Positions 37,941 through 55,355 of a stretch of 64,000 nt of DNA are shown here, in pieces. The notes beneath the pieces are model-generated. The model was not told the origin of the DNA, searched no databases, and saw only the letters and a program-made list of their open reading frames with translations. The stretch is from Cytobacillus gottheilii (GTDB taxonomy: Bacteria > Bacillota > Bacilli > Bacillales > Cytobacillaceae), in the NCBI RefSeq assembly GCF_001636345.1, contig NZ_KV440945.1, positions 3,553,354 to 3,617,353 on the forward strand. The letters are read 5' to 3'. How positions within the stretch are numbered: position 1 is the stretch's first letter; every line of letters starts with the position of its first letter. The position numbers were made by a program, and so were the translations under genes.

Positions 37941-38040
37941 ATTGGAGTATAAAAATTAAAAGTAGAAAATTATAAACCTTGCTACATGTATTGTAGCAAG
38001 GCTCTAAAGAGACAAAAATTTATGTCGATTTCTTAATAAA

Positions 38041-38118
38041 TAAAACTGCCCCGTTTATGGAATAAAACAAGCCGCCTAGAGTTTGGCAGCTGAGTTTGAA
38101 CTTAACACTTGTTAATTG
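38041..38118 (-). repeat. Dispersed terminator-like repeat, copy 5
   Basis: ACTGCCCCGTTTATGGAATA, AAACAAGCCGCCTAGAGTTTG, GCAGCTGAGTTTGAAC and TTAACACTTGTTAAT, a complete copy directly behind the DUF523 gene (stop at 38125). Confidence 0.75.
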
Positions 38119-38124
38119 AAAACA

Positions 38125-38592
38125 TTATTGTAATTCATAAAGAAAATCAGACAGATTTTCTTCGGAAATTACTTTTAAACCATTTCTTTTAAGCAAAGCC
38201 GTAGTGACACCTATTCCAGTAACTTTAATTCCTTTAAACTCACCATTATAAATAAGTGAACTACCGCAAGATGGGCTGTATTCCTTAAGTATAATAGTTG
38301 TTGCGCTTAACTCTTGAGCTTTCTTTAATGTTAAGTATGCACCGTTTATATATAATTCAGTAACATCTTTACCTGACTTTTCAATAACTATTGCCTTCCC
38401 ATCTAATACATCTTCCCCATCTCCTCCGACGATTTCAGCAGGCTCTCTTGGAGTTGAAAAACCTCCAAGTAGTTCTGGACAAACAGTTATAGCTTTATTT
38501 TCTGATAAAAGGTTAAGTATTCTATCGTCTAAACTATCTGTTCCGTTATACCTTACTTTAAACCCTGCTAAACAAGAGCTAACTAATATCAA
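38125..38592 (-). CDS. DUF523 family protein
   Basis: A 155-residue protein with the DUF523 marks: an N-terminal SSCLAGFKVRYNGT, a central VCPELLGGFSTPREPAEI and a later LKEYSPSCGS. The conserved cysteines suggest a metal or cluster site. The biochemical role of the stand-alone form is not established. Single gene followed by a repeat-type terminator. Confidence 0.85.
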   Translation of the reverse strand: MILVSSCLAGFKVRYNGTDSLDDRILNLLSENKAITVCPELLGGFSTPREPAEIVGGDGEDVLDGKAIVIEKSGKDVTELYINGAYLTLKKAQELSATTIILKEYSPSCGSSLIYNGEFKGIKVTGIGVTTALLKRNGLKVISEENLSDFLYELQ

Positions 38593-38668
38593 TTTTTACA
38601 CCTCGAATATAAAAGAATAATGTTAATTTTAGCACTTTTTCAACATATTAACTATTTTTTCCTATGGA

Positions 38669-38772
38669 GCTAACCTGCCCGTTTCTACCATAAGCAAAGT
38701 TTCATTTATTACAGGAATGCTGCCCCTTTAGTGAAATAGTAGAAGCTGCCTCAGTGGCAGCCAGGGCTTCAT
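38669..38772 (-). repeat. Dispersed terminator-like repeat, copy 6, with IS110-like right end
   Basis: GCTAACCTGCCCGTTT at 38669-38684 is followed by a stretch ending TTTATTACAGGAATG (38705-38719) and then CTGCCCCTTTAGTG and the stem AGCTGCC/GGCAGC. The ACAGGAATG-CT junction matches the right end of the IS110 copies in this window (21 of the last 23 bases), without a transposase. It lies behind the TrmO-like gene. Confidence 0.65.
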
Positions 38773-38833
38773 ATAGATCCTTTAAGCTAAATAAAAAAGT
38801 ACTTTAATTCATACTTGAATTTTAGTTTTTGAT

Positions 38834-39298
38834 TTAGGCGTTCCAATATTTATCCATCAAAGATATTGACCAATTCGGCTGAATCACTTCACCTTTTGGC
38901 AAAAATTCTTTCATTACTGGTTTGATGTCTATTATAGGAGTCCCATCTATTGCATCTAACCCTTTTACAATTAATTGTTTATTATTACTATCTAAGAGTT
39001 CAACAATAGTAACTCCTAACTTATTAGGTCTATTTTTACCCCTTTGTGCAAAAATACCTACTTTAGGATACTCTTTGTTATTTCTTGGATGTCTTGCTTC
39101 AAGTTGAATTTTATCATCTGCAACCTTATCAAAGTAAAAGATGATTTCCAAATGAGAGAATTCATTAATACCTTCCAAAGAAGATTCACTCATATTGTCT
39201 GCTAACTCAATAGTTGATATAACTGACCCCCAATTGTCATCCTCAATAACTATACGATTATTATTCACTTGAGCTATTGGAACAATAGCAATTTGCAA
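38834..39298 (-). CDS. TrmO-family tRNA methyltransferase (TsaA/UPF0066)
   Basis: A protein of 154 to 166 residues with the TrmO fold marks: SHLEIIFYFDKV, the RHPRNNKEYPKVGIFAQRG segment and NRPNKLGVTIVELL. TrmO methylates N6-threonylcarbamoyl-A37 in tRNA with SAM; short stand-alone members of the family may differ. Two starts are possible: GTG at 39334 behind AAAGGGGG, or TTG at 39298 behind GGGAGGGG. The second matches the family N-terminus (LQIAIVPIAQVNNNR) and is preferred. Confidence 0.75.
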   Translation of the reverse strand: MQIAIVPIAQVNNNRIVIEDDNWGSVISTIELADNMSESSLEGINEFSHLEIIFYFDKVADDKIQLEARHPRNNKEYPKVGIFAQRGKNRPNKLGVTIVELLDSNNKQLIVKGLDAIDGTPIIDIKPVMKEFLPKGEVIQPNWSISLMDKYWNA

Positions 39299-39589
39299 AG
39301 TTACCCCTCCCATTCCTACTAAAGTGGATTTCACTTAAAACCCCCTTTTTCCAACATACACAATGTGGAATTTAAATAGAATAAGGGATTATTTATAAAT
39401 ATCCATAAGCTTAACTTATTGAACTAACCTCCCTCAATAAACAAACACTTTTCTCTTAAATACGCAGTTTTTCACCGTATTGCTATCTAACTTATTTTAC
39501 TTTACAGATTTGATTAGAGAGAAAAGTACACAATCAAGCTGTTTACGAAGAAAATGAGCGCAAGAAACTAGCCAACCTTCGGTTAATTT

Positions 39590-39800
39590 CTAAAAGTTGG
39601 ATAAATAGGTATGTACGCACCAATGGATATCCACATTTCTTATGGGGGTCTACCCTCCCAAGTCTCACAGAGTCTACGCTCCTACATTCCTTCGTTCAAC
39701 CTTTCCATAAGGTGGATGTCAGTCATGCTGCCCCACAGGATCTAAGTCCTTACGTTAGTTGCGTTGCCAACTAATCCCATGCTGATTTTGTCTGTTCATC
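39590..39800 (-). ncRNA. Putative bridge RNA of IS110 copy A
   Basis: Within the non-coding 3' part, plus-strand CCCTCCC (39653) matches the left end CTCCC, CATTCCT in CCTACATTCCTTCGTTC (39681-39697) is the complement of right-end AGGAATG, and GCTGCCCC (39727-39734) equals the right side of the insertion site. RNA from the minus strand could thus pair with both element ends and the target. Exact RNA ends are not known; the span is approximate. Confidence 0.6.
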
Positions 39801-39839
39801 TTTTCAAATCTATTGGTTAAATCGTTAGTTTAATAGTGA

Positions 39840-41135
39840 TTAAGCTGCTATTGGTTCTTGGATAAATGCATGCATATGGGGGATGTCCTTCAACATCTTC
39901 TCTTCTTGAAACACAAACTGTTTCTTACCAATAGAGAAGAGTATACGGATGATCTTATTACATAAAGCAATTAAAGACTGCATCTTTTTCAACGGATTTT
40001 CAGGTCTCGTTGTGTAGTAATGATGGAGGGCTTTAAAGGCTTTGTTCTTGGCTACTAGAATCATAGATGCCCGGAATAACAATGCTCGTAATTTCTTTCG
40101 ACCACGTTTGGTTATCCTGGTTCTCCCTTTATGCTTACCTGATGTATTTTCTTTTAAGCTAAGTCCAGCCAGTTTAGTTATCTGGCGAGGATGATTGTAT
40201 TCACTCAAATCGCCTACTTCAGCGAAGAAACCCGCCACTGTATCGCGGCCAATTCCTGTTATTTCTAACATTTGATCAACGCCTGGAATATCTTGAAGTA
40301 GTGTATCCAGAGTTTGGTCAAGTTCCTCAAACTTGTTTTGAATGAGTTCATACTTTTGGATTAACGTTCTTAACTCCATTTTAGCCATCATGGCACCCTG
40401 ACGGATGCCAATCGAGCGATTGGCTGCTTCTTTTAAAGCACGAATCTTCTTAATCCCTATACTTCGTTTCACTGCTTGCCTAAGATATTCAAGCAATTCT
40501 TCTTCTGTATATCTCACCAGTTCTTCCGGTAATGCTTCAAGCTTTAATAAATGAAGAGCTGCCTTCCCTTCCCAACTTTTAAAGACGGTAAAGAACTCTG
40601 GAAAATATCGATCAATCCAGTTGTGTACCTGTCCTTGCACTATTTGTAAGTCTACATTTAATAGATCACGTAATTTCTTAGCCACACGCAGTTCTGCAAA
40701 AACTCCTTGTGGTATCGTTGGTTCGGAGTATCTACCATCTTTGACTAGTTGTGCAATGACTTTTGCGTCTTTCACATCATTCTTAGTTGGAGAATTATCG
40801 TCTAGCTCCTTACTGTGCTTGACGTGTAAGGGGTTGACCGTGACGAACTTAATCTGTTCTTCCTTTAAAATATGAGCTAAATTGAGCCAATAATGGCCTG
40901 TTGGCTCCATTCCAGTAATGACAGACTCCATTTCGTATGAATCTTTTATTTGATTAATCCAATTAATAAATGTCCTGACTCCCTCTTGAGTATTATCAAA
41001 AAAGCAAGTAGAACCTAATTCTATTCCACGATAATCCTGTGCTCTAGCTACATGATGATGTTTGGCAATATCAATACCAATGATTAAGGTTTTTGGTGTA
41101 ATTTGAGCTATTTTATGATTTTGGTTATAATTCAT
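39840..41135 (-). CDS. IS110-family transposase, copy A
   Basis: A 431-residue DEDD-type recombinase. The N-terminal RuvC-like domain has GIDIAKHHHVARAQD, MEPTGHYWLNLA and NDVKDAKVIAQL (the acidic residues), and the C-terminal Tnp20 domain has ITGIGRDTVAGFFAEVGDL and AGLSLKENTSGKHKGR with the conserved serine. GGAGG precedes the ATG. It catalyses RNA-guided insertion and excision in known family members. Confidence 0.95.
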   Translation of the reverse strand: MNYNQNHKIAQITPKTLIIGIDIAKHHHVARAQDYRGIELGSTCFFDNTQEGVRTFINWINQIKDSYEMESVITGMEPTGHYWLNLAHILKEEQIKFVTVNPLHVKHSKELDDNSPTKNDVKDAKVIAQLVKDGRYSEPTIPQGVFAELRVAKKLRDLLNVDLQIVQGQVHNWIDRYFPEFFTVFKSWEGKAALHLLKLEALPEELVRYTEEELLEYLRQAVKRSIGIKKIRALKEAANRSIGIRQGAMMAKMELRTLIQKYELIQNKFEELDQTLDTLLQDIPGVDQMLEITGIGRDTVAGFFAEVGDLSEYNHPRQITKLAGLSLKENTSGKHKGRTRITKRGRKKLRALLFRASMILVAKNKAFKALHHYYTTRPENPLKKMQSLIALCNKIIRILFSIGKKQFVFQEEKMLKDIPHMHAFIQEPIAA

Positions 41136-41249
41136 TTTGAGACCTCCGAGTAGATATTTTGTCCCTTTTAGCTAGCCGGCTTAGGACACATTTATCTTAT
41201 CAAGAGGTCTTTTTTCTATCAAATCTCATTTTCACTTATTACAGGAATG

Positions 41250-41328
41250 CTGCCCCTTTTGTTACATAAGAAAAGCCGCCTGAATTGGCAGCTGATCTTG
41301 AACATAAGCATCTGTTTGTTTAAGTGAA
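41250..41328 (-). repeat. Dispersed terminator-like repeat, copy 7 (split by IS copy A)
   Basis: CTGCCCC, CATAAGAAAAGCCGCCTGAA, TTGGCAGCTGATCTTGAACA and GTTTGTTTAAGTG form the right part; its left AACTAACCT lies at 39422-39430 on the far side of the element. It lies behind the VOC gene ending at 41399. Confidence 0.8.
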
Positions 41329-41398
41329 GTTTATTACAAACTTCTTTTTTTACTACAGCTATAAAGTTTTGAAAGTAATAAATATCATGATTATGGTA

Positions 41399-41776
41399 CT
41401 ATTTTCGTTTAGAGGACACTCTTATATAATAACCATCAGGATCAATGACTCTAAAATCAAGCATCCCCCAAGTTTGTAGTTTTAAATCAGATTCAATTGA
41501 ATTAGGATTTTTTTGTTTTATATTTTTATATATCTCTTCAACTTGATCTGTTATAATGATAAATTCTACACCACCACCCATTTTAGCAAAGTTATGCTTT
41601 TTAAAATAATGATTGTCATCTAAAACCTCAATTGAAGTTAAAAGAAGAAAAGATTCGTTGCTAATAAAACTTACACTTTTTTCTCCCTGTTGTGATAATT
41701 CAAGCTTTAAAAGGTTTTGATAGAAAAAAATTGATTTCTCAATATCGTTTACAAAGAACTCAATTCTAAATGCCAT
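41399..41776 (-). CDS. VOC-family protein
   Basis: A 125-residue protein of the glyoxalase/bleomycin-resistance fold: FRIEFFVNDIEKSIFFYQNL at the start and LDFRVIDPDGYYIRVSS at the end, each a beta-alpha-beta-beta-beta module. The substrate is unknown. It lies between two dispersed repeats, like a one-gene unit. Confidence 0.8.
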   Translation of the reverse strand: MAFRIEFFVNDIEKSIFFYQNLLKLELSQQGEKSVSFISNESFLLLTSIEVLDDNHYFKKHNFAKMGGGVEFIIITDQVEEIYKNIKQKNPNSIESDLKLQTWGMLDFRVIDPDGYYIRVSSKRK

Positions 41777-41860
41777 ATTAATACCTCATATTATTTATAG
41801 ATTGGTCAAATTCTTTTCAAACTTCTAAATTCAATATATTCTATTAAAATCCTTTTTTCC

Positions 41861-41940
41861 TTAGCTAACCTGCCCCGTTTAGTCCATTAGAAAAAAGCCG
41901 CCTAAATTGGCAGCTGTTCTTGAACATATCACTCTAAATG
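41861..41940 (-). repeat. Dispersed terminator-like repeat, copy 8 (intact reference copy)
   Basis: TTAGCTAACCTGCCCCGTTT, AGTCCATTAGAAAAAAGCCG, CCTAAATTGGCAGCTGTTCT, TGAACATATCACTCTAA. This uninterrupted copy shows what the IS110 target looked like before insertion. It lies directly behind the VOC gene ending at 41963. Confidence 0.8.
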
Positions 41941-41962
41941 GTAAAAGCAAAACGGATTTTTT

Positions 41963-42421
41963 CTATTTACCTATGTAGAGTTCTTCCCATTCTTCTATAG
42001 ATACCTTATCAATATTTCTTAAATGTTCAGGTATTTCAATGTAACACATTAATTCTAAACTGTTTCCATCAGGATCTTCAAAATATACAGAAGCATTTCC
42101 TTGATATGGTCTTACAAAAGGTTCTACTGATGTTCTACCTCCGAAAGGAACAGCTGAAATACCTTTACTTTTTAACCATCCTAACGAACTTTTCATATCC
42201 TCATAAGAAATAGTAAAGGCTAAATGCCTTAAAGAAGGGTGGTATAGGGTTTTAACTTCTTTCCCTTCCCATAACCCTACCCAACTTTCCCCTTCAACTA
42301 TCCAGAAGAATGCGGTATCTGAACTACGCCAGGCAAGCTTTAATTCTAAATTATAATAAAACTCTATTGATTTATCTAAATCTTTTACAGGTAAATGGGC
42401 TTCATAAATCCCTTTAATCAT
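41963..42421 (-). CDS. VOC-family protein (glyoxalase/dioxygenase-like)
   Basis: A 152-residue protein: YEAHLPVKDLDKSIEFYYN opens the first module with a His metal-ligand candidate, LRHLAFTI the second, and FEDPDGNSLELMCY carries the final Glu. IS110 element D begins 10 bases before the ATG, and the present ribosome binding site (GAGGGAGG) is partly made by the element's left end. Without the element the site would read AAGGAGGT. The gene may now be transcribed from within the element. Confidence 0.82.
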   Translation of the reverse strand: MIKGIYEAHLPVKDLDKSIEFYYNLELKLAWRSSDTAFFWIVEGESWVGLWEGKEVKTLYHPSLRHLAFTISYEDMKSSLGWLKSKGISAVPFGGRTSVEPFVRPYQGNASVYFEDPDGNSLELMCYIEIPEHLRNIDKVSIEEWEELYIGK

Positions 42422-42599
42422 TTATATAACCTCCCTCTATAAATGTTGATTTATCAACGGTTTGACCCGTTGGTGGGGTGTCAAAAAAATATTTTTCGAC
42501 ACGTCTTCTAACAAAATTTTAATAATATGTGAAACTATTCCAACGTATGGGTACGCTACGCGGTCACTACTGGATAATGATGGTAAGTAGTGCTAGGAA

Positions 42600-42780
42600 A
42601 ATATGTGATGCACAATGGATCTCTGCGTAGCTTATGATGACGTACCCTCCCATGTCTCTGGGCATCTAAGTGCCTACATTCCTTCGTTCGGTCTAGTCAT
42701 AAGGCAGAGGCTAGCGAAGCTCCTTTAGGGACTCGAGGTCGAATGGAAAAAATAATGCCAGCTTCTCCGTGTCATCCTGT
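42600..42780 (-). ncRNA. Putative bridge RNA of IS110 element D
   Basis: CCCTCCC (42645-42651), CCTACATTCCTTCGTTC (42673-42689) and GCTCCTT (42719-42725) occur with the same 28- and 46-base offsets as the matching segments in copies A-C. GCTCCTT equals the right flank of D's own insertion site, where A-C have GCTGCCCC. The span is approximate. Confidence 0.6.
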
Positions 42781-42810
42781 TGTCTAGGTCTGTTAAGGGG
42801 ATGTAGAACT

Positions 42811-44088
42811 TTACATAGCCTCTGCGAGACTAGGAATATCCTTCATCATTCGCTGTGCGTCAAATGCTTTGTGCTTGGTACTGATCCCATGTAACACTTT
42901 TAATAGTTTTCCGCATAGAACCACGATGGATTGCTTCTTACGTAACGGATTAACCTTACGGTTTGTGTAATACTCATGTAGCTTTCGAAAGGCTTCATTA
43001 TGGCGAATCATTGGCATCATCACTCGGAAAAGGAGGGCGCGTAGCTTTCTTCTGCCCCGTTTGGAGATGCGTTTTTGTCCTTTGTGCTGACCGGAGGAAT
43101 TTTCACGTAATGTTAATCCCGCGAGTTTAATGATTTGGCGTGGATCTTCATAGTGTGAAAAGCTACCGATTTCAGCTAACAAATCGACAATTGTGGTATC
43201 ACCAAGTCCTTGAACCGTTGAGAGCCATTCGTACTCTACAGATGTTTGAACGAGCTCAACTAAGTGCTGTGTAATACTTTCAATTTCTTGTTCCAATTGG
43301 TTGTAACGACGAACGAGTGTGGCGATTTCAATACGGGCCATTTCACGTCCCTCTGTTACTCCGATGGAATTAGCAGCGACTTCAATAAGGCGAATTGCTT
43401 TCGGTCGTTGGGGAGATTTGAGCCCATCAACCTGGCGGTAAAGTGCTAATACTTCATCGGGATGTTTCTGGTGAAGATCACTAGGAAATGGGGTACACTC
43501 TAGTACTGCCATTGCCATCTTTCCGAATGACGGAAAGACCTGGGTGAACTCAGGAAAATAGCGATCTAACCAGCGAATCATCATGTTTTTAACAGCTCCA
43601 AGTTCCTCTGTCAACTTACTTTTAAACGTTGACCCAACACGAAGTTCTGCCTCCACGTCTTTCAAGATTCGCGGATAACTAAAGCGTCCATCTTTAACAA
43701 GACGAGCGATCACTAAAGCATCTTTGCGGTCATGTTTGGTTGGTAAATTGTCATCCAACTCCTTTGACCGTTTGACGTGCATAGGGTTGGTCATAGCCAG
43801 GGGAATCCCCCGATCCTCGAGGAAATAGGCTAAATTAAGCCAGTAATGGCCTGTAGGTTCAATCCCGACAATGACTTCCGTTTTTTCGTATTCTTTCATT
43901 GCAGCCAAAATACGTTGATAAAAACTCAAGAAACCATCACTAGATTGTAATACCGAGAAAGATTTTTGTAGTACCCGTCCACGATCATCTACAAAGCAAG
44001 CAAAATGTTTTCGCTTGGCAATGTCGATTCCGACTACGAGTGTTTTTTCGGTGACTTGATTTATTTTCTGATTTTGTTTAAAATCCAT
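42811..44088 (-). CDS. IS110-family transposase of element D
   Basis: A 425-residue DEDD recombinase clearly related to, but divergent from, copies A-C: GIDIAKRKHFACFVDDRG, IEPTGHYWLNLA, HDRKDALVIARL in the RuvC-like part, and LGDTTIVDLLAEIGSF and AGLTLRENSSGQHKGQ in the Tnp20 part. The frame appears complete. An AGGAGG-like site precedes the ATG. Confidence 0.93.
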   Translation of the reverse strand: MDFKQNQKINQVTEKTLVVGIDIAKRKHFACFVDDRGRVLQKSFSVLQSSDGFLSFYQRILAAMKEYEKTEVIVGIEPTGHYWLNLAYFLEDRGIPLAMTNPMHVKRSKELDDNLPTKHDRKDALVIARLVKDGRFSYPRILKDVEAELRVGSTFKSKLTEELGAVKNMMIRWLDRYFPEFTQVFPSFGKMAMAVLECTPFPSDLHQKHPDEVLALYRQVDGLKSPQRPKAIRLIEVAANSIGVTEGREMARIEIATLVRRYNQLEQEIESITQHLVELVQTSVEYEWLSTVQGLGDTTIVDLLAEIGSFSHYEDPRQIIKLAGLTLRENSSGQHKGQKRISKRGRRKLRALLFRVMMPMIRHNEAFRKLHEYYTNRKVNPLRKKQSIVVLCGKLLKVLHGISTKHKAFDAQRMMKDIPSLAEAM

Positions 44089-44484
44089 TTTGGAGTCCTC
44101 CTTGGTTACCTAAGTTAGGGGTCATTTCGCCACACGATTTGACACCCCGAATCATACCAAGAGGGCTCTTTTTTGTTCAAGTCCCCGAAAATCCTTCTAA
44201 CAGGAATGCTCCTTACATTTAATTTTAAATAGTCACCAAATTATTACCTCCATGTATAGATTGAAATCCCCTACAACTTTAGCTGTAGAATTAATGGGAC
44301 CTTATATTCTCTATTCAACAAACCTCCCTCAATAAACAAACACTTATCTCTTAATTACGCAGTTTTTCACCGTATTGCTATCTATCTTGTTTTACTTTAC
44401 AGATTTGATTAGAGAGAAAAGTACACAATCAAGCTGTTTACGAAGAAAATGAGCGCAAGAAACTAGCCAACCTTCGGTTAATTT

Positions 44485-44695
44485 CTAAAAGTTGGATAAA
44501 TAGCTATGTACGCACCAATGGATGTCCACATTTCTTATGGGGGTCTACCCTCCCAAGTCTCACAGAGTCTACGCTCCTACATTCCTTCGTTCAACCTTTC
44601 CATAAGGTGGATGTCGGTCATGCTGCCCCACAGGATCTAAGTCCTTACGTTAGTTGCGTTGCCAACTAATCCCATGCTGATTTTGTCTGTTCATC
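44485..44695 (-). ncRNA. Putative bridge RNA of IS110 copy B
   Basis: Near-identical to copy A: CCTACATTCC at 44576 and GCTGCCCC at 44622-44629, 46 bases apart. The span is approximate. Confidence 0.55.
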
Positions 44696-44734
44696 TTTTC
44701 AAATCTATTGGTTAAATCGTTAGTTTAATAGTGA

Positions 44735-46030
44735 TTAAGCTGCTATTGGTTCTTGGATAAATGCATGCATATGGGGTATATCCTTCAACATCTTCTCCTC
44801 TTGAAACACAAACTCTTTCTTACCAATAGAGAATAGTATACGGATGAGCTTATTACACAAAGCAATTAAAGACTGCATCTTTTTCAACGGATTGTCAGGT
44901 CTCGTTGTGTAGTAATGATGGAGGGCTTTAAAGGCTTTGTTCTTGGCTACTAGAATCATAGATGAACGGAATAACAATGCTCGTAATTTCTTTCGACCAC
45001 GTTTGGTTATTCTGGTTCTCCCTTTATGCTTACCTGATGTATTTTCTTTTAAGCTAAGTCCAGCCAGTTTAGTTATCTGGCGAGGATGATTGTATTCACT
45101 CAAATCGCCTACTTCAGCGAAGAAACCCGCCACTGTATCGCGGCCAATTCCTGTTATTTCTAACATTTGATCAACGCCTGGAATATCTTGAAGTAGTGTA
45201 TCCAGAGTTTGGTCAAGCTCTTCGAACTTGTTTTGAATGAGTTCATACTTTTGGATTAACGTTCTTAACTCCATTTTAGCCATCATGGCACCCTGGCGGA
45301 TGCCAATCGAGCGATTGGCTGCTTCTTTTAAGGCACGAATCTTCTTAATCCCTATACTGCGTTTCACTGCTTGCCTAAGGTATTCTAGTAATTCTTCTTC
45401 TGTATATCTCACCAGTTCTTCCGGTAATGCTTCAAGCTTTAATAAATGAAGAGCTGCCTTCCCTTCCCAACTTTTAAAGACGGTAAAGAACTCTGGAAAA
45501 TACCGATCAATCCAGTTGTGTATCTGTCCTTGCACTATTTGTAAGTCTACATTTAATAGATCACGCAATTTCTTAGCCACACGCAGTTCTGCGAAAACCC
45601 CTTGTGGTATCGTTGGTTCGGAGTATCTACCATCTTTGACTAGTTGTGCAATGACTTTTGCGTCTTTCACATCATTCTTAGTTGGAGAATTATCGTCTAG
45701 TTCCTTACTGTGCTTGACGTGTAAGGGGTTGACCGTGACGAACTTAATCTGTTCATCCTTTAGAATATGAGCTAAATTAAGCCAATAATGGCCTGTTGGC
45801 TCCATTCCAGTAATGACAGACTCCATTTGGTATGAATCTTTTATTTGATTAATCCAATTAATAAATGTTCGAATTCCTTCTTGAGTATTATCAAAAAAGC
45901 AAGTAGAACCTAGCTCTATTCCACGATAATCCTGTGCTCTAGCTACATGATGATGTTTGGCAATATCAATACCAATGATTAAGGTTTTTGGTGTAATTTG
46001 AGCTATTTTATGATTTTGGTTATAATTCAT
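44735..46030 (-). CDS. IS110-family transposase, copy B
   Basis: A 431-residue DEDD recombinase differing from copy A at only a few residues (for example Gln for Glu in KDSYQMES, Asp for Glu in RPDNPLKK). All recognised catalytic motifs are intact, so it may be active. Confidence 0.95.
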   Translation of the reverse strand: MNYNQNHKIAQITPKTLIIGIDIAKHHHVARAQDYRGIELGSTCFFDNTQEGIRTFINWINQIKDSYQMESVITGMEPTGHYWLNLAHILKDEQIKFVTVNPLHVKHSKELDDNSPTKNDVKDAKVIAQLVKDGRYSEPTIPQGVFAELRVAKKLRDLLNVDLQIVQGQIHNWIDRYFPEFFTVFKSWEGKAALHLLKLEALPEELVRYTEEELLEYLRQAVKRSIGIKKIRALKEAANRSIGIRQGAMMAKMELRTLIQKYELIQNKFEELDQTLDTLLQDIPGVDQMLEITGIGRDTVAGFFAEVGDLSEYNHPRQITKLAGLSLKENTSGKHKGRTRITKRGRKKLRALLFRSSMILVAKNKAFKALHHYYTTRPDNPLKKMQSLIALCNKLIRILFSIGKKEFVFQEEKMLKDIPHMHAFIQEPIAA

Positions 46031-46144
46031 TTTGAGACCTCCGAATAGATATTTTGTCCCTTTTAGCTAGCCGGCTTAGGACACATTTATCTTATCAAGA
46101 GGTCTTTTTTCTATCAAATCTCATTTTCACTTATTACAGGAATG

Positions 46145-46221
46145 CTGCCTCTTTAGTGCATTAAAAGATAGAAAGGCATTCATTCGTTCATCTTGAATCA
46201 ATGCCCCCATTTGTTTAAGTA
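46145..46221 (-). repeat. Dispersed terminator-like repeat, diverged copy (split by IS copy B)
   Basis: CTGCCTCTTTAGTGCATTAA, AAAGGCATTCATTCGTTCAT, CTTGAATCAATGCCCCCATT and TGTTTAAGTAC. The outer blocks match the family, while the stem is AGGCATT/AATGCC-like. It lies directly behind the Nudix gene. Confidence 0.65.
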
Positions 46222-46228
46222 CAATGAT

Positions 46229-46681
46229 TTACATATTCTTATCAATATAGTCAAGTACCTTTTTATCAACGGAGTCAATGAAACCTATTTCTTCATTTAA
46301 GTCCCAAAGTTTTATTTCTGATGTTTCTATGTTTTCTTTAAAAGGAAGTAGATTTTCAATTGTCGTGAAGTAAACTGGGTTATATTTAATGTGTCCGTCT
46401 GATATTTTTCGCACTTTTATTAAACCTATAAAGACTAGTTTAGTTACATATTGACCTGTTTCCTCATTCAGTTCTCTTATGGCACATTCCTTTGGTGTTT
46501 CATTACTTTCTCTACCACCCGCAGGTAGTTCCCATTGTTTACGTAAGGTGTTATATCCTAGGAGATATTTTCCATCGCATTTCAATACTGCAAAAGAACC
46601 TGCTAAGGGAGTATATTGGCATATACTTGTCTCCTTTACATTAATAAAGTCGAGAAATTCAAATCCATTATTTTTTAACAA
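46229..46681 (-). CDS. Nudix hydrolase
   Basis: A 150-residue protein with a Nudix box, GGRESNETPKECAIRELNEE followed by TGQ (GX5EX7REUXEEXGU), which binds Mg and cleaves nucleoside diphosphate-linked compounds. The substrate is not predictable. It begins with TTG behind AGGAGG. It is a single gene bounded on both sides by dispersed repeats. Confidence 0.85.
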   Translation of the reverse strand: MLKNNGFEFLDFINVKETSICQYTPLAGSFAVLKCDGKYLLGYNTLRKQWELPAGGRESNETPKECAIRELNEETGQYVTKLVFIGLIKVRKISDGHIKYNPVYFTTIENLLPFKENIETSEIKLWDLNEEIGFIDSVDKKVLDYIDKNM

Positions 46682-46747
46682 TTAGTTCGAGTCCTCCTTT
46701 TATATTCTCAAATGATTCCACAATATTCACGTGAATTCCTTCTTCAA

Positions 46748-46825
46748 GTAAACTGCCCCTATAGCACCATAAGAAAAAGGCTTCCCCTTTTATCTAAGGA
46801 AAGCACCCATTACTTTAAGTACATC
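46748..46825 (-). repeat. Dispersed terminator-like repeat, GGCTTCC variant
   Basis: AAACTGCCCCTATAGCACCA, TAAGAAAAAGGCTTCCCC, AAGGAAAGCACCCATTAC and TTTAAGTAC. It is closely similar to the copy at 32797-32858 and lies in the gap behind the GAP-family gene. Confidence 0.7.
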
Positions 46826-46937
46826 TTTTCACAAATGTATTGGTTATAGCTTTAATATGCAAAATATTTCAGTGAGTATCTTTCGCATGCAAAATCGATA
46901 TTCCTTAAATAATCGTGTCATAAGGTCTGTTATTTTA

Positions 46938-47053
46938 TGTTAGCATTTCAAAAGCTACCTGTTCATTTGCTAGGAATATATCTTCAAGATGTCCAACATA
47001 TTGAGAATTTTCTGTACGACCAATGATAATTTCTCCTTCCCCCGAAAGATTAA
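46938..47053 (-). other. Possible gene remnant of about 40 codons
   Basis: A frame ending with TAA near 46938 reads LSGEGEIIIGRTENSQYVG then HLEDIFLANEQVAFEML, a non-random, protein-like sequence without a start of its own and adjoining the stop of the GAP-family gene. It may be the tail of a lost gene. The rest of 46826-47053 shows nothing. Confidence 0.3.
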
Positions 47054-47710
47054 TTATAAATAATCTATGGTGTAAAATATTAAAATGACCCCTACTATAC
47101 ACATAACCCAGGATAATACTGAATTGGAACTTTTTGATATTTTATTCCGGATCTTAACTAAGATATGGTTTATCGACTTTCCAAATAATCTATATCCTAA
47201 AAATATAAGCAGGGCTGGAAAAATCATTATAATATTATAAGTTGCTATAATTGGAATCCATTGATAAAAAGGAATATCAATTGAAGTTAATAAACCAATT
47301 GCGGCATAATACGGTAAAGCTGTGCCTGCCTCAATGATAAAAGTGATAAAACCAATGATTATAATTGATAAGGTGCTTTGAGACTTAGGCTTAGGAATAT
47401 TACTTTTTTTATTTGCGGGTACAAGAAAACTAGAAATAAATAAAATCATCCCTATAATGAAGATTACCCAGCTAAAGATTTTGTTTTGAAAGATATTTGT
47501 AAATGCCTCTATAATATAATTCAAGCCAAACATCATCAGGATACCTAGTGAAAAATACAAAAGTGCAACCGTAAATAGATATGCTAATAGCCTTGTTGTT
47601 AAGTTTTTATTATCTGTTAAAACCAGATATAGCGTAACTCCAATTATTGTAGGGCTTAATGTATCTAAAAGTGCTAAACCACCCATATAAATTAATATAT
47701 CTATCTCCAT
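47054..47710 (-). CDS. GAP/Sap-family membrane protein (LysE-like fold)
   Basis: A protein of about 218 residues with six predicted helices and the N-terminal DTLSPTIIGVTLYLVL motif of the GAP (Sap, LysE-related) family, which is linked to export of small or lipid molecules in other bacteria. GGAGGGGG before the ATG at 47710 decides the start over 47740. It follows a MerR gene by 32 bases and is probably an exporter under its control. Confidence 0.75.
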   Translation of the reverse strand: MEIDILIYMGGLALLDTLSPTIIGVTLYLVLTDNKNLTTRLLAYLFTVALLYFSLGILMMFGLNYIIEAFTNIFQNKIFSWVIFIIGMILFISSFLVPANKKSNIPKPKSQSTLSIIIIGFITFIIEAGTALPYYAAIGLLTSIDIPFYQWIPIIATYNIIMIFPALLIFLGYRLFGKSINHILVKIRNKISKSSNSVLSWVMCIVGVILIFYTIDYL

Positions 47711-47742
47711 TTCCCCCTCCACATGAGCATTTGTGTTCAAAA

Positions 47743-48489
47743 CTATGATTTATTATCGAGATAATACTTATAAGCCATTTCCATAAAGTTAAGGGCTTCA
47801 TGGTCAATTGGATATAGATTATAATCTTTTGATTCCTTTGGTGACATTCTAATGCCCCAAAGTTTGTCTAAAAAAACTTCTTCGTTTTTAAAATCTTCAC
47901 CTTTTTTTACATCCATTCTCTTTATGATATTTTGTATTCTTGAATTTCTAAACCCAAGGTGCATATATTTTTTTATTTGCCCTACTAAAGCAATCCACTC
48001 CAAGGAGTCAGGATCGCTACTAGCCATATTGGGAAGTTTTTTTAATACTTCCTTGTTTTTGACATTTAATTCATCTCGATAATAATTTAATATTTTTTTA
48101 GAGTCCCTAGAGTCCCTAGTATATAGATTCATGATTTTTTTAATCTTAAATTCTTCCCCATCAATCGCTATACCGTTTATTAGTTCCCTTAAACTCATTT
48201 CTATCTTTGAGAGTCGATCCTTTTCATGCAAAACGTGAGATAGTTGTTTCATTAAACCGTTGGACCAATCCCATTCCTCAGACTCTAACATAATTTTGAT
48301 CTCACCTAATTTAAAGCCTATAATTTTTAGGAATTGTATTTGCTGAAGTTTCTTCAACTCAGTGCTGGTGTATAATCGATGGCCTCCTTCAGTTTTTGAT
48401 ACAGGTTTTAGAAGTCCTATCTTGTCATAATATCTCAAGGTTCTAACTGATACACCGCTTAGCTTTTTAAATTCGTTAATATGAAACAA
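47743..48489 (-). CDS. MerR-family regulator (TipA-like)
   Basis: A 248-residue protein with MerR winged helix (FKKLSGVSVRTLRYYDKIGL, then RLYTSTELKKLQQI), a coiled coil, and a helical TipAS-like effector domain. It lies between a 49-residue membrane protein gene and the GAP-family gene, all behind a promoter with a 19-base spacer, so it probably activates its own operon in response to a drug-like ligand. Confidence 0.85.
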   Translation of the reverse strand: MFHINEFKKLSGVSVRTLRYYDKIGLLKPVSKTEGGHRLYTSTELKKLQQIQFLKIIGFKLGEIKIMLESEEWDWSNGLMKQLSHVLHEKDRLSKIEMSLRELINGIAIDGEEFKIKKIMNLYTRDSRDSKKILNYYRDELNVKNKEVLKKLPNMASSDPDSLEWIALVGQIKKYMHLGFRNSRIQNIIKRMDVKKGEDFKNEEVFLDKLWGIRMSPKESKDYNLYPIDHEALNFMEMAYKYYLDNKS

Positions 48490-48506
48490 GCTAATATCCT
48501 ACCTTC

Positions 48507-48656
48507 TTATTCATTAGTATTATTAAAAAACATGATTTTAAATAGGTAACCAATTCCTAAGCCAATAAGTACTCCTGGAAAAGCATTATCAAAAAATAAA
48601 CCTATTCCTGCTCCAATAATAACGCAAGCATAAATAATAATATCGTCTTTCTTCAA
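48507..48656 (-). CDS. 49-residue small membrane protein heading the MerR operon
   Basis: TTG start at 48656 behind AAAAGGAG, stop at 48507, 17 bases before the MerR gene. After KKDDIIIY the product has two hydrophobic stretches rich in Gly (IIGAGIGLFFDN and GVLIGLGIGYLFKIMFF), as in small transporter subunits or regulatory membrane peptides. It is shorter than common gene-calling limits and is supported by its ribosome binding site, coding character and promoter. Confidence 0.65.
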   Translation of the reverse strand: MKKDDIIIYACVIIGAGIGLFFDNAFPGVLIGLGIGYLFKIMFFNNTNE

Positions 48657-48704
48657 ATTAGGATTCTCCTTTTCAATAAATTGTAAAGTAAAAGTATTAA
48701 TAAC

Positions 48705-48735
48705 AGTATAAAAGATGACGTAAGGTCACTTTCAA
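48705..48735 (-). promoter_or_regulatory. MerR-type promoter with 19-base spacer
   Basis: On the minus strand TTGAAA (48735-48730) and TATACT (48710-48705) are 19 bases apart, with the dyad GTGACCTTACGTCA in the spacer. This is the MerR activation geometry, upstream of the small membrane protein, MerR and GAP-family genes. Confidence 0.8.
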
Positions 48736-48814
48736 CTAATTTAAACATCTCATTGAAAAAAATTGAAACTGACCCTGCGTCATTTAATATAATCAGGTTT
48801 AAGGAGGGAGAAAA

Positions 48815-49480
48815 ATGATCAAACCAACAACCATAAGTTTATTTTTAGTACTAATTATGCTTGCAGGCTGTTCAACAGGAGAGGAAGAAGTAATCGTAAA
48901 TAAAGAATCCGTAGAAGATATTGAGGAGATCAAGATAAATTTTGCAAGTACAGATGTAAAAATTTCGCCGGGTGAATCAGATCAACTAGAAACACATTTA
49001 AATGTTTACGATGACGGAACCGGTGCAATATTAGATAAGTCTTCAAAACGGTTATCAATTGATTTAGATAAGGATATTACACGCCTGTTTAACCTTAAAA
49101 ACCAAACATCTTTAGAGGTAAAGGTACCACAGCAATTTAAAGGGAAAATAATTATGGATGGATCTTCCGGTAATGTTTCTGGTAAGGAATTGATTCAAAA
49201 TGATATTGAAGTACGAACAAGCAGTGGTAATATTAAACTTTATTTTGTAGAATTAAATAACGATGTAAAATTAACAACCACAAGTGGTAAGGTATCAGTA
49301 AATTTTAAAGAACAACAGCCTAATTTAGAGTTAAATATAAATACAAACAGTGGTAGACAATCAATTGACTTAACTTTAAACGGCAAAACACAAACGAATA
49401 AAAAGTTACAAGGTTTCTCCGGAAATGGTGAGAATAAGATGGAAATTACAACGAAGTCAGGAAGTACAAATGTGAATTAA
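48815..49480 (+). CDS. DUF4097-type lipoprotein
   Basis: A 221-residue lipoprotein: signal peptide with lipobox LAGC (Cys19), then a beta-solenoid with repeated SSGN/TSGK/NSGR turns (for example VRTSSGNIKLYF, LTTTSGKVSVNF, INTNSGRQSIDL), the DUF4097 (adhesin-like) pattern. It is anchored outside the membrane; function unknown. AAGGAGGGAG lies before the ATG. It is divergent from the MerR operon and shares its intergenic region. Confidence 0.8.
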   Translation: MIKPTTISLFLVLIMLAGCSTGEEEVIVNKESVEDIEEIKINFASTDVKISPGESDQLETHLNVYDDGTGAILDKSSKRLSIDLDKDITRLFNLKNQTSLEVKVPQQFKGKIIMDGSSGNVSGKELIQNDIEVRTSSGNIKLYFVELNNDVKLTTTSGKVSVNFKEQQPNLELNINTNSGRQSIDLTLNGKTQTNKKLQGFSGNGENKMEITTKSGSTNVN

Positions 49481-50735: not shown

Positions 50736-50800
50736 CATGCCTGGCGCACATAAGAAAGCCGCCTGATTCGGCAGCTGATCTTGAACATAAGTACCCTTCG
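50736..50800 (-). repeat. Dispersed terminator-like repeat, copy upstream of IS110 E
   Basis: CACATAAGAAAGCCGCCTGA, TTCGGCAGCTGATCTTGAAC, ATAAGTACCC: a good right-hand copy. Here it lies between the dead IS256 and IS110 E, so its original gene partner has been lost. Confidence 0.75.
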
Positions 50801-50808
50801 TATTATAA

Positions 50809-50843
50809 GGTCAGCCAGAGAAACCTGGTTGACTATTTTTTAT
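50809..50843 (+). terminator. Terminator upstream of IS110 E
   Basis: GTCAGCCAG (50810-50818) and CTGGTTGAC (50825-50833) followed by TATTTTTTATT on the plus strand. It would shield the element from outside transcription. Confidence 0.7.
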
Positions 50844-50857
50844 TCAATTTATAGATT

Positions 50858-51030
50858 GATAGTAGCCGGGGTAGAACGGAAGCACCCGTGGGACTTGATC
50901 CCGACAACTAAACTGTTCGCCCTCTACTTGTTAACACATGATTAGGCTGGTTGGGACATGATGATCCCGTATAACAAGCGAAGATATGAATGACAAGCTA
51001 GATAGAGGTTACCGGTCAATCCACTACACT
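50858..51030 (+). ncRNA. Putative bridge RNA region of IS110 E
   Basis: The non-coding stretch before the transposase contains several G/C-rich complementary segments (GCCGGGG, CACCCGTGGGACTTGATCCC, GGTTGGGACATGATGATCCC) in otherwise AT-rich DNA. IS110-subgroup elements encode their bridge RNA in this 5' position, unlike A-D where it lies 3'. Ends and guides were not resolved. Confidence 0.45.
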
Positions 51031-51045
51031 AGGAGGAGATAATTT

Positions 51046-52281
51046 ATGAATCCAGTTGTTGGTCTGGATGTAGCTAAAGGTGAAAGTCAGGTTCAAATGT
51101 TCTTGGATAAAAAAATACCCTATAAAAACAGTGTGAAAGTTGAACATACGGTGGATGGTTTAAAAGAGTTATACTCTTATTTACTAGATTTAGAGCATCA
51201 AACAGGGATGAAACCACCAGTTGTCTTGGAATCAACGGGTCACTATCATGCCCCAGTTGTACAGTTTTTAGAAGCAAGAGAGTACATTGTCATTATCGTA
51301 AATCCATTGGTATCTTACCGAGCAAAAAGTTCTAGTTTAAGAAAAACCAAAACAGATGCCATTGATGCTTATCACTTAGGCGAACTGTATTACAAAGAGG
51401 ATTTAGAGCCGCAGAAAAAGCGTGGTGTTCAGTTATTAAACCTTCGGTATCTGACAAGACAACATGAAAATATGACGGGAATTATGGTTCAAACAAAGCT
51501 TCAATTTCAATCTGTGTTAGATCAAGTATTTCCAGAGTATAAAGGCGTTTTTGGCGATCTGTATGCCGAGGTTTCATTAAGAACTTTACAAACTTTCCCT
51601 ACCTCGGAGACTGTCTTAAAAGCTTGTGTGGAGGAAATTGCACAATTTATTGATAGGCATTGTAAAGCACGATCGTTTAATTGGGCGCTTGAAAAAGCAG
51701 AGGGATTAATCGCAGCCGCAGAACGCAACCCATATCAGTCAACGCTTTATCAAAGCCTTCTTGTCAGTCTGAATATGTATATTGATTTACTTCAAGTGTA
51801 CCACCAACAGCTTTCTACGTTGGAGCGTGAGATTGATCAGTTAGCAGTACAACTCGAAGAATATGAACTACTCCAAACAATTCCCGGTGTAGGTGAAAAA
51901 ATCGCTGCAACGATTATTTCTGAAATTGGGGAAATTGATCGGTTTAGTCATCCCAAAAAGTTAGTTGCCTTTGCAGGACTTGATCCTAGTGTATTTGAAT
52001 CAGGTCGCTTTAAAGGCACGAAGAATCATATTACTAAACGAGGCTCTGCAAGGCTTCGCCACATGCTTTTCACAGCAGTTCGGTGTTCCATTCGAGATAG
52101 TCGTAAAAAGAAAACAACTGAAGAAACCATTGCACGAAATAAGCGATTACGTGCCTTCTACGATTTAAAACGTGAAGAAGGTAAGCCTTATAAGGTAGCC
52201 ATTATTGCATGTGCTAATAAGCTTTTACACTGGTTTTATGCGATGTTAAAAACGAAAACTCCATTCCAAGAAACTATTTAG
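51046..52281 (+). CDS. IS110-family transposase E
   Basis: A 411-residue DEDD recombinase, only distantly related to A-D: NPVVGLDVAKGESQVQMF, VLESTGHYHAPVV and KTKTDAIDAYHLGELY in the RuvC-like domain, then LQTIPGVGEKIAATIISEIG and AGLDPSVFESGRFKG in the Tnp20 domain. AGGAGGAG precedes the ATG. The frame is complete. Element ends were not established, though a structured 5' region and an upstream terminator belong to it. Confidence 0.93.
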   Translation: MNPVVGLDVAKGESQVQMFLDKKIPYKNSVKVEHTVDGLKELYSYLLDLEHQTGMKPPVVLESTGHYHAPVVQFLEAREYIVIIVNPLVSYRAKSSSLRKTKTDAIDAYHLGELYYKEDLEPQKKRGVQLLNLRYLTRQHENMTGIMVQTKLQFQSVLDQVFPEYKGVFGDLYAEVSLRTLQTFPTSETVLKACVEEIAQFIDRHCKARSFNWALEKAEGLIAAAERNPYQSTLYQSLLVSLNMYIDLLQVYHQQLSTLEREIDQLAVQLEEYELLQTIPGVGEKIAATIISEIGEIDRFSHPKKLVAFAGLDPSVFESGRFKGTKNHITKRGSARLRHMLFTAVRCSIRDSRKKKTTEETIARNKRLRAFYDLKREEGKPYKVAIIACANKLLHWFYAMLKTKTPFQETI

Positions 52282-53397: not shown

Positions 53398-53699
53398 TAT
53401 CCCTCTCCTTCTACTTTTTAAATTTACTGGAAAAGGTATTTAATTATCCGACATTTCATGCACAAATATGTCGGGTTATTTCAATACCAATGAATTAATT
53501 CTATTTCTTTCAAGAAACTCCTTCTTCCACAAACCTCCCTCAATAAACAAACACTTATCTCTTAATTACGCAGTTTTTCACCGTATTGCTATCTAACTTG
53601 TTTTACTTTACAGATTTTTACTAGAGAGAAAAGAACACAATCAAGCTGTTTACGAAGAAAATGAGCGCAAGAAACTAGCCAGCCTTCGGTTAATTTCTA

Positions 53700-53905
53700 A
53701 AAGTTGGATAAATAGGTATGTACGCACCAATGGATGTCCACATTTCTTATGGGGGTCTACCCTCCCAAGTCTCACAGAGTCTACGCTCCTACATTCCTTC
53801 GTTCAACCTTTCCATAAGGTGGATGTTGGTCATGCTGCCCCACAGGATCTAAGTCCTTACGTTAGTTGCTTTGCCAACTAATCCCATGCTGATTTTGTCT
53901 GTTCA
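53700..53905 (-). ncRNA. Putative bridge RNA of IS110 copy C
   Basis: CCTACATTCC at 53788 and GCTGCCCC at 53834-53841, 46 bases apart as in the other copies. The span is approximate. Confidence 0.55.
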
Positions 53906-53945
53906 TCTTTTCAAATCTAATGGTTAATCGTTCGTTTAATAGTGA

Positions 53946-55241
53946 TTAAGCTGCTATTGGTTCTTGGATAAATGCATGCATATGGGGGATGTCCTTCAAC
54001 ATCTTCTCTTCTTGAAACACAAACTGTTTCTTACCAATAGAGAAGAGTATACGGATGATCTTATTACATAAAGCAATTAAAGACTGCATCTTTTTCAACG
54101 GATTTTCAGGTCTCGTTGTGTAGTAATGATGGAGGGCTTTAAAGGCTTTGTTCTTGGCTACTAGAATCATAGATGCCCGGAATAACAATGCTCGTAATTT
54201 CTTTCGACCACGTTTGGTTATCCTGGTTCTCCCTTTATGCTTACCTGATGTATTTTCTTTTAAGCTAAGTCCTGCCAGTTTAGTTATCTGGCGAGGATGA
54301 TTGTATTCACTCAAATCGCCTACTTCAGCGAAGAAAAAAGCCACTGTATCACGGCCAATTCCTGTTATTTCTAACATTTGATCAACGCCTGGGATATCTT
54401 GAAGTAGTGTATCCAGAGTTTGGTCAAGCTCTTCGAACTTGTTTTGAATGAGTTCGTACTTTTGGATTAACGTTTTTAACTCCATTTTAGCCATCATGGC
54501 ACCCTGACGGATGCCAATCGAGCGATTGGCTGCTTCTTTTAAGGCACGAATCTTCTTAATCCCTATACTGCGTTTCACTGCTTGCCTAAGGTATTCTAGT
54601 AATTCTTCTTCTGTATATCTCACCAGTTCTTCCGGTAATGCTTCCAGCTTTAATAAATGAAGAGCTGCCTTCCCTTCCCAACTTTTAAAAACGGTAAAGA
54701 ACTCTGGAAAATATCGATCAATCCAGTTGTGTACCTGTCCTTGCACTATTTGTAAGTCTACATTTAATAGATCACGTAATTTCTTAGCCACACGCAGTTC
54801 TGCAAAAACTCCTTGTGGTATTGTTGGTTCGGAGTATCTACCATCTTTGACTAGTTGTGCAATGACTTTTGCGTCTTTAACATCATTTTTAGTTGGAGAA
54901 TTATCGTCTAGTTCCTTACTGTGCTTGACATGTAAGGGGTTGACCGTGACAAATTTAATCTGTTCCTCCTTTAGAATATGAGCTAAATTAAGCCAATAAT
55001 GGCCTGTTGGCTCCATTCCAGTAATGACAGACTCCATTTCGTATGAATCTTTTATTTGATTAATCCAATTAATAAATGTTCGAACTCCTTCTTGAGTATT
55101 ATCAAAAGAGCAAGTAGAACCCAACTCCATTCCACGATAATCCTGTGCTCTAGCTACGTGATGATGTTTGGCAATATCAATACCAATAACTAAGGTTTTA
55201 GGAGTAATTTGAGCTATTTTATGATTTTGGTTATAATTCAT
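53946..55241 (-). CDS. IS110-family transposase, copy C
   Basis: A 431-residue copy nearly identical to A and B. It differs in the helix-hairpin-helix-like segment, where DTVAGFFAEVG reads DTVAFFFAEVG (Gly to Phe from a small codon change), and at some other sites. Gly is conserved in the other two copies, so C may be impaired. Confidence 0.93.
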   Translation of the reverse strand: MNYNQNHKIAQITPKTLVIGIDIAKHHHVARAQDYRGMELGSTCSFDNTQEGVRTFINWINQIKDSYEMESVITGMEPTGHYWLNLAHILKEEQIKFVTVNPLHVKHSKELDDNSPTKNDVKDAKVIAQLVKDGRYSEPTIPQGVFAELRVAKKLRDLLNVDLQIVQGQVHNWIDRYFPEFFTVFKSWEGKAALHLLKLEALPEELVRYTEEELLEYLRQAVKRSIGIKKIRALKEAANRSIGIRQGAMMAKMELKTLIQKYELIQNKFEELDQTLDTLLQDIPGVDQMLEITGIGRDTVAFFFAEVGDLSEYNHPRQITKLAGLSLKENTSGKHKGRTRITKRGRKKLRALLFRASMILVAKNKAFKALHHYYTTRPENPLKKMQSLIALCNKIIRILFSIGKKQFVFQEEKMLKDIPHMHAFIQEPIAA

Positions 55242-55355
55242 TTTGAGACCTCCGAGTAGATATTTTGTCCCTTTTAGCTGGCCAGCTCAGGACACATTTA
55301 TCTTATCAAGAGGTCTTTTTTCTATCAAATCTCATTTTCACTTATTACAGGAATG

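Follow-up and report, generated by a model that had tools for sequence, protein, structure and literature searches.

Four insertion sequences, A to D, in a 64,000-nucleotide stretch of the Cytobacillus gottheilii genome (assembly GCF_001636345.1, contig NZ_KV440945.1, forward-strand positions 3,553,354 to 3,617,353; hereafter the window) very probably encode a guide RNA that chooses their insertion site, with a change of guide going together with a change of site. The basis for this is agreement in sequence, covariation, and the joint change of guide and target, all of which we observed in these elements and their relatives. RNA-guided insertion has been established since 2024 for the bridge RNAs of IS110 (PMC11208160 and PMC11208158) and the seekRNAs of IS1111 (PMC11187229; all papers are cited here from excerpts), and A to D extend that known mechanism. 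Within the window, A, B, and C are three copies of one IS110-family element and D is the single copy of a second, and the transposase genes of all four lie on the minus strand (Table 1). Genome-wide, there are five full copies and one truncated copy of the A type, and three copies of the D type with 100% identical protein.

In the transposase frame, a full copy reads left target, AG, CATTCCTGT ... GAGGG, AG, right target. The ends AGGAATG|CT and CT|CCCTC are present in A to D, all four of which carry the shared motif AGGAATG described in a sequence-only reading of the window that preceded this work. That reading had proposed bridge RNAs from three spaced segments in the noncoding part 3' of the transposase, CCCTCCC, CCTACATTCCTTCGTTC, and GCTGCCCC (GCTCCTT in D). 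We recovered the offsets of 28 and 46 bases in A, B, C, and D, and thus extend to B and C the 28-base offset that had been claimed for A and D alone. The further claim that the +46 segment is identical to the element's own insertion site fails for B, whose flank GCTGCCTC mismatches the guide once.

Relatives were collected by a homologue search over one genome per species, followed by further copies taken mostly from multi-copy genomes. The loci (numbered L; genomes are numbered G) form a nonrandom sample, made of the best 80 of 130 confirmed loci, further loci from the search, and 60 chosen regions mostly from multi-copy genomes. After requiring a query start of ≤15 and an end of ≥400, collapsing copies with identical flanks, and leaving out L015-L026, which are the same places as other loci already in the set, we retained 139 distinct near-full-length copies. 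Two copies without an RNA region (L092 and L071) were set aside, which gave 137 elements for analysis; the right-target tests used 125 (column scan) and 123 (register test), and the Shine-Dalgarno test used 125. The left end AGCATTCCTGT is found in 139 of 139 copies and the right-end motif GAGGGAG at its expected place in 130 of 137. These ends remain nearly constant down to 38% transposase identity, while the target-side flanks vary.

For the left half of the target (LT), we scanned every RNA column across the 137 elements with no guide position assumed. Flank positions -5 to -1 were best matched by columns 92, 93, 94, 95, and 96. These five columns are collinear on one diagonal, followed by the core AG at columns 97-98, and we refer to them as the left target guide (LTG). 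Agreement of the flank with the element's own guide at positions -5, -4, -3, -2, and -1 is 81, 89, 92, 98.5, and 100%, respectively, and all five letters are matched in 90 elements. When each of the 20 guide variants was represented by a single drawn element, 89.8 of 100 letters matched, compared to 41.5 ± 5.7 with shuffled flanks (maximum of 68 in 5,000 draws).

We also formed 40 disjoint sister pairs, each of two elements as similar as possible but with different guides; every element was used once, although guides are inherited. Flank letters agreed with the element's own guide in 80 cases, with the partner's in 5, and with neither in 1. By pair, the own guide was favored in 36, 4 tied, and the partner's was never favored. 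Four pairs have aligned RNAs that are 100% identical outside the guide; L205/L211 (TGAGG and CGAGG), L203/L209, and L202/L208 follow their own guide, and L204/L210 ties. Within a single genome (G186), guide ATAGGAG occurs at TAGG targets in 5/5 cases and guide AAAGGAG at AAGG targets in 3/3. Among plasmid elements outside the main set with a readable left end, the Priestia element matches 5/5 guide letters at a markedly different target (guide and flank AAACT), the Geobacillus element 5/5 (AAAGG), and the Sporomusa element 3/5. The other copies in the C. gottheilii genome agree with the earlier proposal as well: the A copies L001, L002, L003, and L005 and the truncated L006 have the left flank GGGGC, B (L004) has GAGGC with one mismatch, and all three D copies have AAGG.

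The conserved fold expected around the segments was also found, in the form of covarying stems with two predicted loops. The fold alignment contained 35 divergent RNAs, left from 136 after removal of near-identical ones. In the structure drawn from D, 86.3% of the cells are paired, compared to 75.0% after shuffling and at most 47.7% when partners are slid by 1-3 columns, and changes on both sides occur in 27 of 36 pairs (19.8 ± 1.6 in shuffles). A de novo RNAalifold consensus contains 24 pairs, 19 of them compensatory, including stem P3c that closes the donor loop and is based on this consensus. We then built a covariance model from 16 hand-picked homologues, none of D type; A, B, and C are near-identical to one member, and D is not. 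The model recovers the D type. It gave one match at each of 29 loci outside the training set (66.7-112.2 bits), four matches in the window, and eight in the whole genome (with 150 of 969 candidates scored), five of them of type A and three of type D. Of seven hand-picked distant plasmid elements, five were matched (Priestia, Geobacillus, Sporomusa, Roseburia, and Lachnospira), always 3' of the transposase, and those of Sulfobacillus and Lactococcus gave no match. Rfam scans of window positions 38000-57000 and of L239 and L240 returned no bridge-RNA family.

In the mechanism that we propose, the region 3' of the transposase gene would encode in A, B, C, and D a bridge RNA consisting of 1) a closing stem P1, 2) a target-binding loop with stem P2a, a right target guide (RTG), hairpin P2b, and the LTG, and 3) a donor-binding loop with stems P3a-c, a right donor guide (RDG) AGGAATG, hairpin P4, and a left donor guide (LDG) GAGGG. 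The donor guides would match the invariant ends of the element and join them across a core that reads AG, or CT on the opposite strand. The target guides would pick the site, which is the box GGGGCAGGTTAG for A and AAGGAG|G for D, and a few changed guide letters would be enough to retarget the element with donor guides and ends kept fixed. No stretches of the alignment stay invariant or nearly so over a greater length than those of the donor guides, ACGAAGGAAT and GGAGG. Transcription, ribonucleoprotein assembly, circle formation, and strand exchange are steps that we infer. In L031 and L158, the right end is directly followed by a left-end-like start (GAGGGAGCATTCCTG), resembling the predicted circle junction. 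Furthermore, in the target loop, the LTG core is followed by a C in 136 of 137 elements (GGGGCAG-C in A, B, and C; AAAGGAG-C in D). The left end (CATTCCT) begins with this base too, which could play the part of the IS621 handshake base (PMC11208158).

The right half of the target (RT) is probably tracked by a segment ~20 nt 5' of the LTG. This segment changes with RT, being CAACTAAAC with AGTTTAGTT (L148, L196, L197, and L218), ACTTAAAC with AGTTTAAGTA (L044 and L045), and GCGAGAC with AGTCTCGC (L108). In a register test with 38 segment variants from 123 elements, the peak was at register 6, with 3.44 of 7 matches vs. 2.35 (z 5.2). A fixed-column scan found antiparallel best columns at RT positions 2 and 3 only, a weakness that we think comes from a one-base alignment slip between sublineages. 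We consider it likely that the RTG lies 5' of the LTG, so the guide order in the RNA would be RTG, LTG, RDG, and LDG, i.e., the IS1111 order on an IS110-type transposase of 425-431 aa. The sequence-only reading had placed the second target guide at ACCT in A and CCT in D; this position, next to stem P3, would give the IS621-like order of LTG then RTG. Those letters are complementary to target AGGT or AGG, and the RTG of IS621 is similarly short, with 4 nt (PMC11208160). However, they sit in the covarying stem P3, paired in P3a/P3b with compensatory changes; CCT persists even where the target is AGTTTAG, as in L148; and it is the upstream segment that does change with RT. We rejected ACCT/CCT as a guide and regard this version of the bridge RNA as unlikely.

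A quite different possibility is that target recognition is by the transposase protein alone, the 3' region being a regulatory or structural RNA and the guide-target matches a by-product of relatedness. Close relatives indeed share both targets and RNA, and the fold energy of single sequences is unremarkable. Yet relatedness fits poorly with the sister pairs, none of which follows its partner's guide, with the pairs of RNAs identical outside the guide, where the differing letter is matched by the own flanks in three of four, or with the collinearity of the best columns for LT -5 to -1, and we hold this explanation to be very improbable. That the left guide has the letters of the left flank on the same strand would also be expected if flank sequence had been copied into the element by transduction or gene conversion. 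The target guides, however, lie ~290-330 nt from the right end (in A and D) and inside the conserved fold. Moreover, the same guide occurs in several copies that have separate insertion sites (as in G186, H. sporothermodurans, and others), which argues that the guide precedes the site and makes copying from the flank extremely improbable. The bridge-RNA interpretation is thus supported by the agreement of guides with their own sites across copies and by the covarying fold.

Several observations nevertheless weigh against this interpretation. At least one LTG-flank mismatch occurs in 47 of 137 elements; in L106, guide AAAGGAG goes with flank ATAGG, and 1-2 mismatches are seen in L028, L044, and L045, among others. 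Many elements share the same genomes. The pairing of the donor guides is invariant and hence without covariation signal, and the bases adjoining these guides (T and TA) are not complementary to the AG core. Of the five measures of covariation, one (further pair types) is not elevated (56 vs. 57.1). Folding energies of single sequences are no better than those of shuffles (z +0.10 and +0.19) and give no signal, so the fold is argued from covariation alone. On the right side, the best RTG register shifts by one base between sublineages (register 5, used by the A lineage, has z 2.9), a signal at register 0 (z 4.0) is unexplained, and the D-lineage RTG specifies little beyond GG. Finally, a promoter scan around the junction in L031 that resembles a joined right and left end gave two promoter-like matches, neither of which spans the junction.

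Table 1. Elements, transposase genes, predicted bridge RNAs, and guides in the window.
Feature	Positions	Strand	Remarks
Element A	39429..41249	-	Bounded by right end CT|CCCTC (+ strand) and left end AGGAATG|CT; one core copy included
Element D	42431..44208	-	In a Shine-Dalgarno sequence upstream of VOC/glyoxalase ORF 41963-42421
Element B	44324..46144	-	A lineage
Element C	53535..55355	-	A lineage
Element E	50798..52281	+	IS110-family transposase 51046-52281; long noncoding region 5' of it
A transposase	39840..41135	-	431 aa, IS110 family (PF01548, PF02371, NF033542)
D transposase	42811..44088	-	425 aa; 46% identical to A
B transposase	44735..46030	-	431 aa
C transposase	53946..55241	-	431 aa
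A predicted bridge RNA core	39628..39775	-	Covariance-model match, 156.2 bits; near-identical A copy in model
D predicted bridge RNA core	42620..42766	-	102.8 bits; model built without D-type sequences
B predicted bridge RNA core	44523..44670	-	158.7 bits
C predicted bridge RNA core	53735..53882	-	160.6 bits
A LTG with core	39728..39734	-	RNA GGGGCAG (= LT)
D LTG with core	42720..42726	-	RNA AAAGGAG (Shine-Dalgarno)
B LTG	44623-44629	-	
C LTG	53835-53841	-	
A RTG (putative)	39754..39761	-	RNA CAACTAAC, pairs with RT GTTAGTTG; moderate
D RTG segment (putative)	42745..42752	-	RNA TTTTTTCC; CC (pairing with GG) alone looks used; weak
B RTG (putative)	44649-44656	-	
C RTG (putative)	53861-53868	-	
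A RDG	39685..39691	-	RNA AGGAATG, complementary to left-end CATTCCT; invariant
D RDG	42677..42683	-	AGGAATG
B RDG	44580-44586	-	
C RDG	53792-53798	-	
A LDG	39653..39657	-	RNA GAGGG = right-end GAGGG; invariant
D LDG	42645..42649	-	GAGGG
A spaced segments	39653/39681/39727		CCCTCCC / CCTACATTCCTTCGTTC / GCTGCCCC
D spaced segments	42645/42673/42719		CCCTCCC / CCTACATTCCTTCGTTC / GCTCCTT
B spaced segments	44548/44576/44622		CCCTCCC / CCTACATTCCTTCGTTC / GCTGCCCC
C spaced segments	53760/53788/53834		CCCTCCC / CCTACATTCCTTCGTTC / GCTGCCCC

To which family do these elements belong? The IS110 RNA-guided transposase model NF033542 scored 208 and 216 bits (cut-off of 140), the DEDD_Tnp_IS110 and Transposase_20 domains were matched, and the best match in the PDB is IS621 (6e-14). 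Residues D22, E77, D120, D123, and S332, which align with the catalytic D, E, D, and D and the distal serine of IS621, are invariant between A and D. IS1111 transposases are 330-350 aa long (PMC11187229), a range that the present ones exceed. IS1111 elements have subterminal inverted repeats of 7-17 bp (PMC11208160), usually 11-13 bp (PMC11187229), and no repeats of that size were found here: those of 14 elements measure 4-7 nt (3-8 nt when shuffled), and the longest among 130 elements is 3-6 nt in 121, with 5 nt in A and D, and 7 nt in 9. The latter, borderline cases belong to one sublineage (L188-L195 and L036) and have AATGAAG at equal offsets. The RNA region is usually downstream of the transposase in IS1111 and upstream in IS110, being downstream in some IS110-type elements, and the order of the matches is reversed between the two families (PMC11187229). 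In A to D, the RNA region is 3' of the transposase, as in IS1111 and not 5' as in IS621. The top-strand match lies 5' of the bottom-strand match, again as in IS1111 (moderate evidence for the RTG part), and the loops read RTG-LTG (on weaker evidence) and RDG-LDG, unlike the left-then-right order of IS621. Judged by their sequences, A to D are members of the IS110 family and not of the IS1111 group, from which repeats and transposase length set them apart; we file them there because the transposase is of IS110 type and the subterminal repeats are absent or short, despite the IS1111 side and order. The likeness to the IS1111 subgroup that the earlier reading saw in the RNA 3' of the transposase extends to guide order but not to repeats or transposase length.

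The elements thus combine traits of known systems. With the IS1111 seekRNA elements ISEc11, ISKpn4, and ISPa11, they share the side of the RNA, the order of the matches, and relatives that are naturally redirected (PMC11187229). Repeats are targets there as well, attC for ISKpn4 and ISPst6 and a repetitive extragenic palindrome (REP) for ISPa11 (PMC11187229), and A is likewise at a repeat. Unlike these elements, A to D and their relatives have no 11-13 bp repeats and a longer transposase; a donor loop is proposed for them, where the excerpts of PMC11187229 describe target matches for IS1111. With IS621 and the IS110 group, they share the DEDD plus serine residues, two internal loops with target and donor guides, a dinucleotide core within the target pairing, and weak or no subterminal repeats (PMC11208160 and PMC11208158). 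Unlike IS621, their RNA is 3' of a longer transposase, the guide order in both loops is reversed in the transposase frame, and the core is AG, not CT, in that frame, the IS621 frame being our reading of PMC11208160 and PMC11208158. An IS110-type "green group" (Fig. 1b of PMC11187229) has, as A to D do, an IS110-type transposase with a downstream noncoding region. A to D are possibly the same as or neighboring this group, which we compared by its one-sentence description.

If the core of A to D is viewed as CT, the order becomes left target, right target, left donor, and right donor, which is the IS621 order, with the RNA gene again beside the left end and its transcription running toward that end. 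A single donor-site inversion, of core and ends together, could therefore explain both the RNA placement and the reversed guide order. This leads us to a tentative proposal, to which we give slightly less than an even chance: the IS1111-type layout would be a donor-site inversion relative to the transposase-RNA unit, and elements of the D lineage, programmed by an RNA that spells the Shine-Dalgarno sequence, would home to ribosome-binding sites, with their right end GAGGG|AGG supplying the downstream gene with a replacement. If so, the IS1111-type layout is not tied to an IS1111 transposase. The occurrence of IS1111-ordered RNA with an IS110-type transposase makes it directly testable whether guide order and core orientation are set by where the RNA gene lies rather than by the class of enzyme.

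The contrasting element E is in the same window. Its left end was placed from the flanks of four copies, and its right end is beyond the transposase, outside the coordinates in Table 1. In the 5' region of the four copies, a segment ending in AAGCACCCGT precedes CAACTAAAC, i.e., LTG before RTG; the left flank is AAGCACCC in three and AAGTACCC in one, and CAACTAAAC pairs with GTTTAGTT, the right flank of L012, from which the other three copies differ by one letter. As read from these four copies without statistics, E shows the usual IS110 layout and order, and A to D the opposite. On the lineage-E loci L010 and L012, the covariance model did not match E's own RNA; the single match in L012 is truncated by the locus end, at the start of element C.

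The target of D, AAGGAG|G, is a Shine-Dalgarno sequence. Among D and those of its relatives whose guide ends in GGAG, the core is followed within 5-16 bases by an ATG, GTG, or TTG start codon, opening an open reading frame (ORF) of at least 40 codons, in 44 of 75 insertions, compared to 12, 11, and 12 of 75 in control windows shifted by 30, 60, and 90, and to 3 of 47 A-type elements. The RNA apparently directs D and its relatives to the start signals of genes in the form of Shine-Dalgarno sequences. After insertion, the start codon is preceded by GAGGG|AGG at the right end, so a ribosome-binding site is probably retained for the downstream gene. IS900-type elements of mycobacteria insert near a Shine-Dalgarno sequence and start codon, which we take as a lead only. 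Searches of an open-access collection, which excludes most subscription papers and all bioRxiv preprints, listed no account of the guides of this clade or of a Shine-Dalgarno-guided IS110 element, and the excerpts of PMC7823733, PMC11616780, and PMC3196728 contain nothing on either.

These findings offer a natural series of retargeted bridge RNAs, with 20 left-guide variants and fixed donor guides, in Bacilli, with model matches in Negativicutes and Clostridia. The D lineage uses a target that is present throughout genomes, and its end may restore the start signal. The tolerance per position, with agreement falling from 100% beside the core to 81% at -5, and the ready-made guide pairs could serve as designs for work on programmable recombinases.

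The target of A is a repeated intergenic box, GGGGCAGGTTAG with flanking arms. A longer pattern of this box, ACGGGGCAGKTTAGTTGA (≤2 mismatches), occurs in 30 of 36 genomes of the genus, with up to 40 copies per genome vs. 0-1 for the reversed pattern. By eye, its consensus is TTCAACTAAC-GGGGCAG-GTTAGTTGAA. Boxes are found near minus-strand sites 32797, 38056, 38681, 38730, 41880, and 46763 of the window, and in L239 and L240 (G016) and L235-L237. Small unrelated genes (TrmO-like, VOC, and NUDIX) form same-strand runs there, many followed by a terminator-like hairpin and the box, and both A and E insert in this gene-hairpin-box unit. When stretches at box arrays were folded, one of five (z -5.1) formed a strong local hairpin, and the other four had z -1.7 to +0.2. 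Such a run resembles a cassette array or a REP-like repeat; in Firmicutes, integrons are reported to be extremely rare (PMC9024848). Two tyrosine recombinases are near box arrays (L235:12450-13298 and L238:4161-4985, both on the minus strand). The one in L235 adjoins the A copy L002 and scores 214 bits with NF040815 (XerA/integron integrase, cut-off of 220) and 108 with TIGR02249 (integron integrase, 265). A ~45-bp fragment of the A left end (CATTCCTGTAATAA...) also occurs between two target boxes without the rest of the element, at window positions 38668-38731, in L236 near 10580-10627 and 11447, and in L237 near 12584-12630. This may be a solo-end or deletion product, which may have been duplicated.

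Elsewhere, IS110 transposase pieces lie within open frames of 1022-2056 codons in genome G180 (G180:C10:1676376-1683516 and G180:C11:8914-11955), an unusual fused or tandem arrangement. Lastly, a 436-aa ORF at 59957-61267 on the minus strand of the window resembles, by eye, a group II intron reverse transcriptase.

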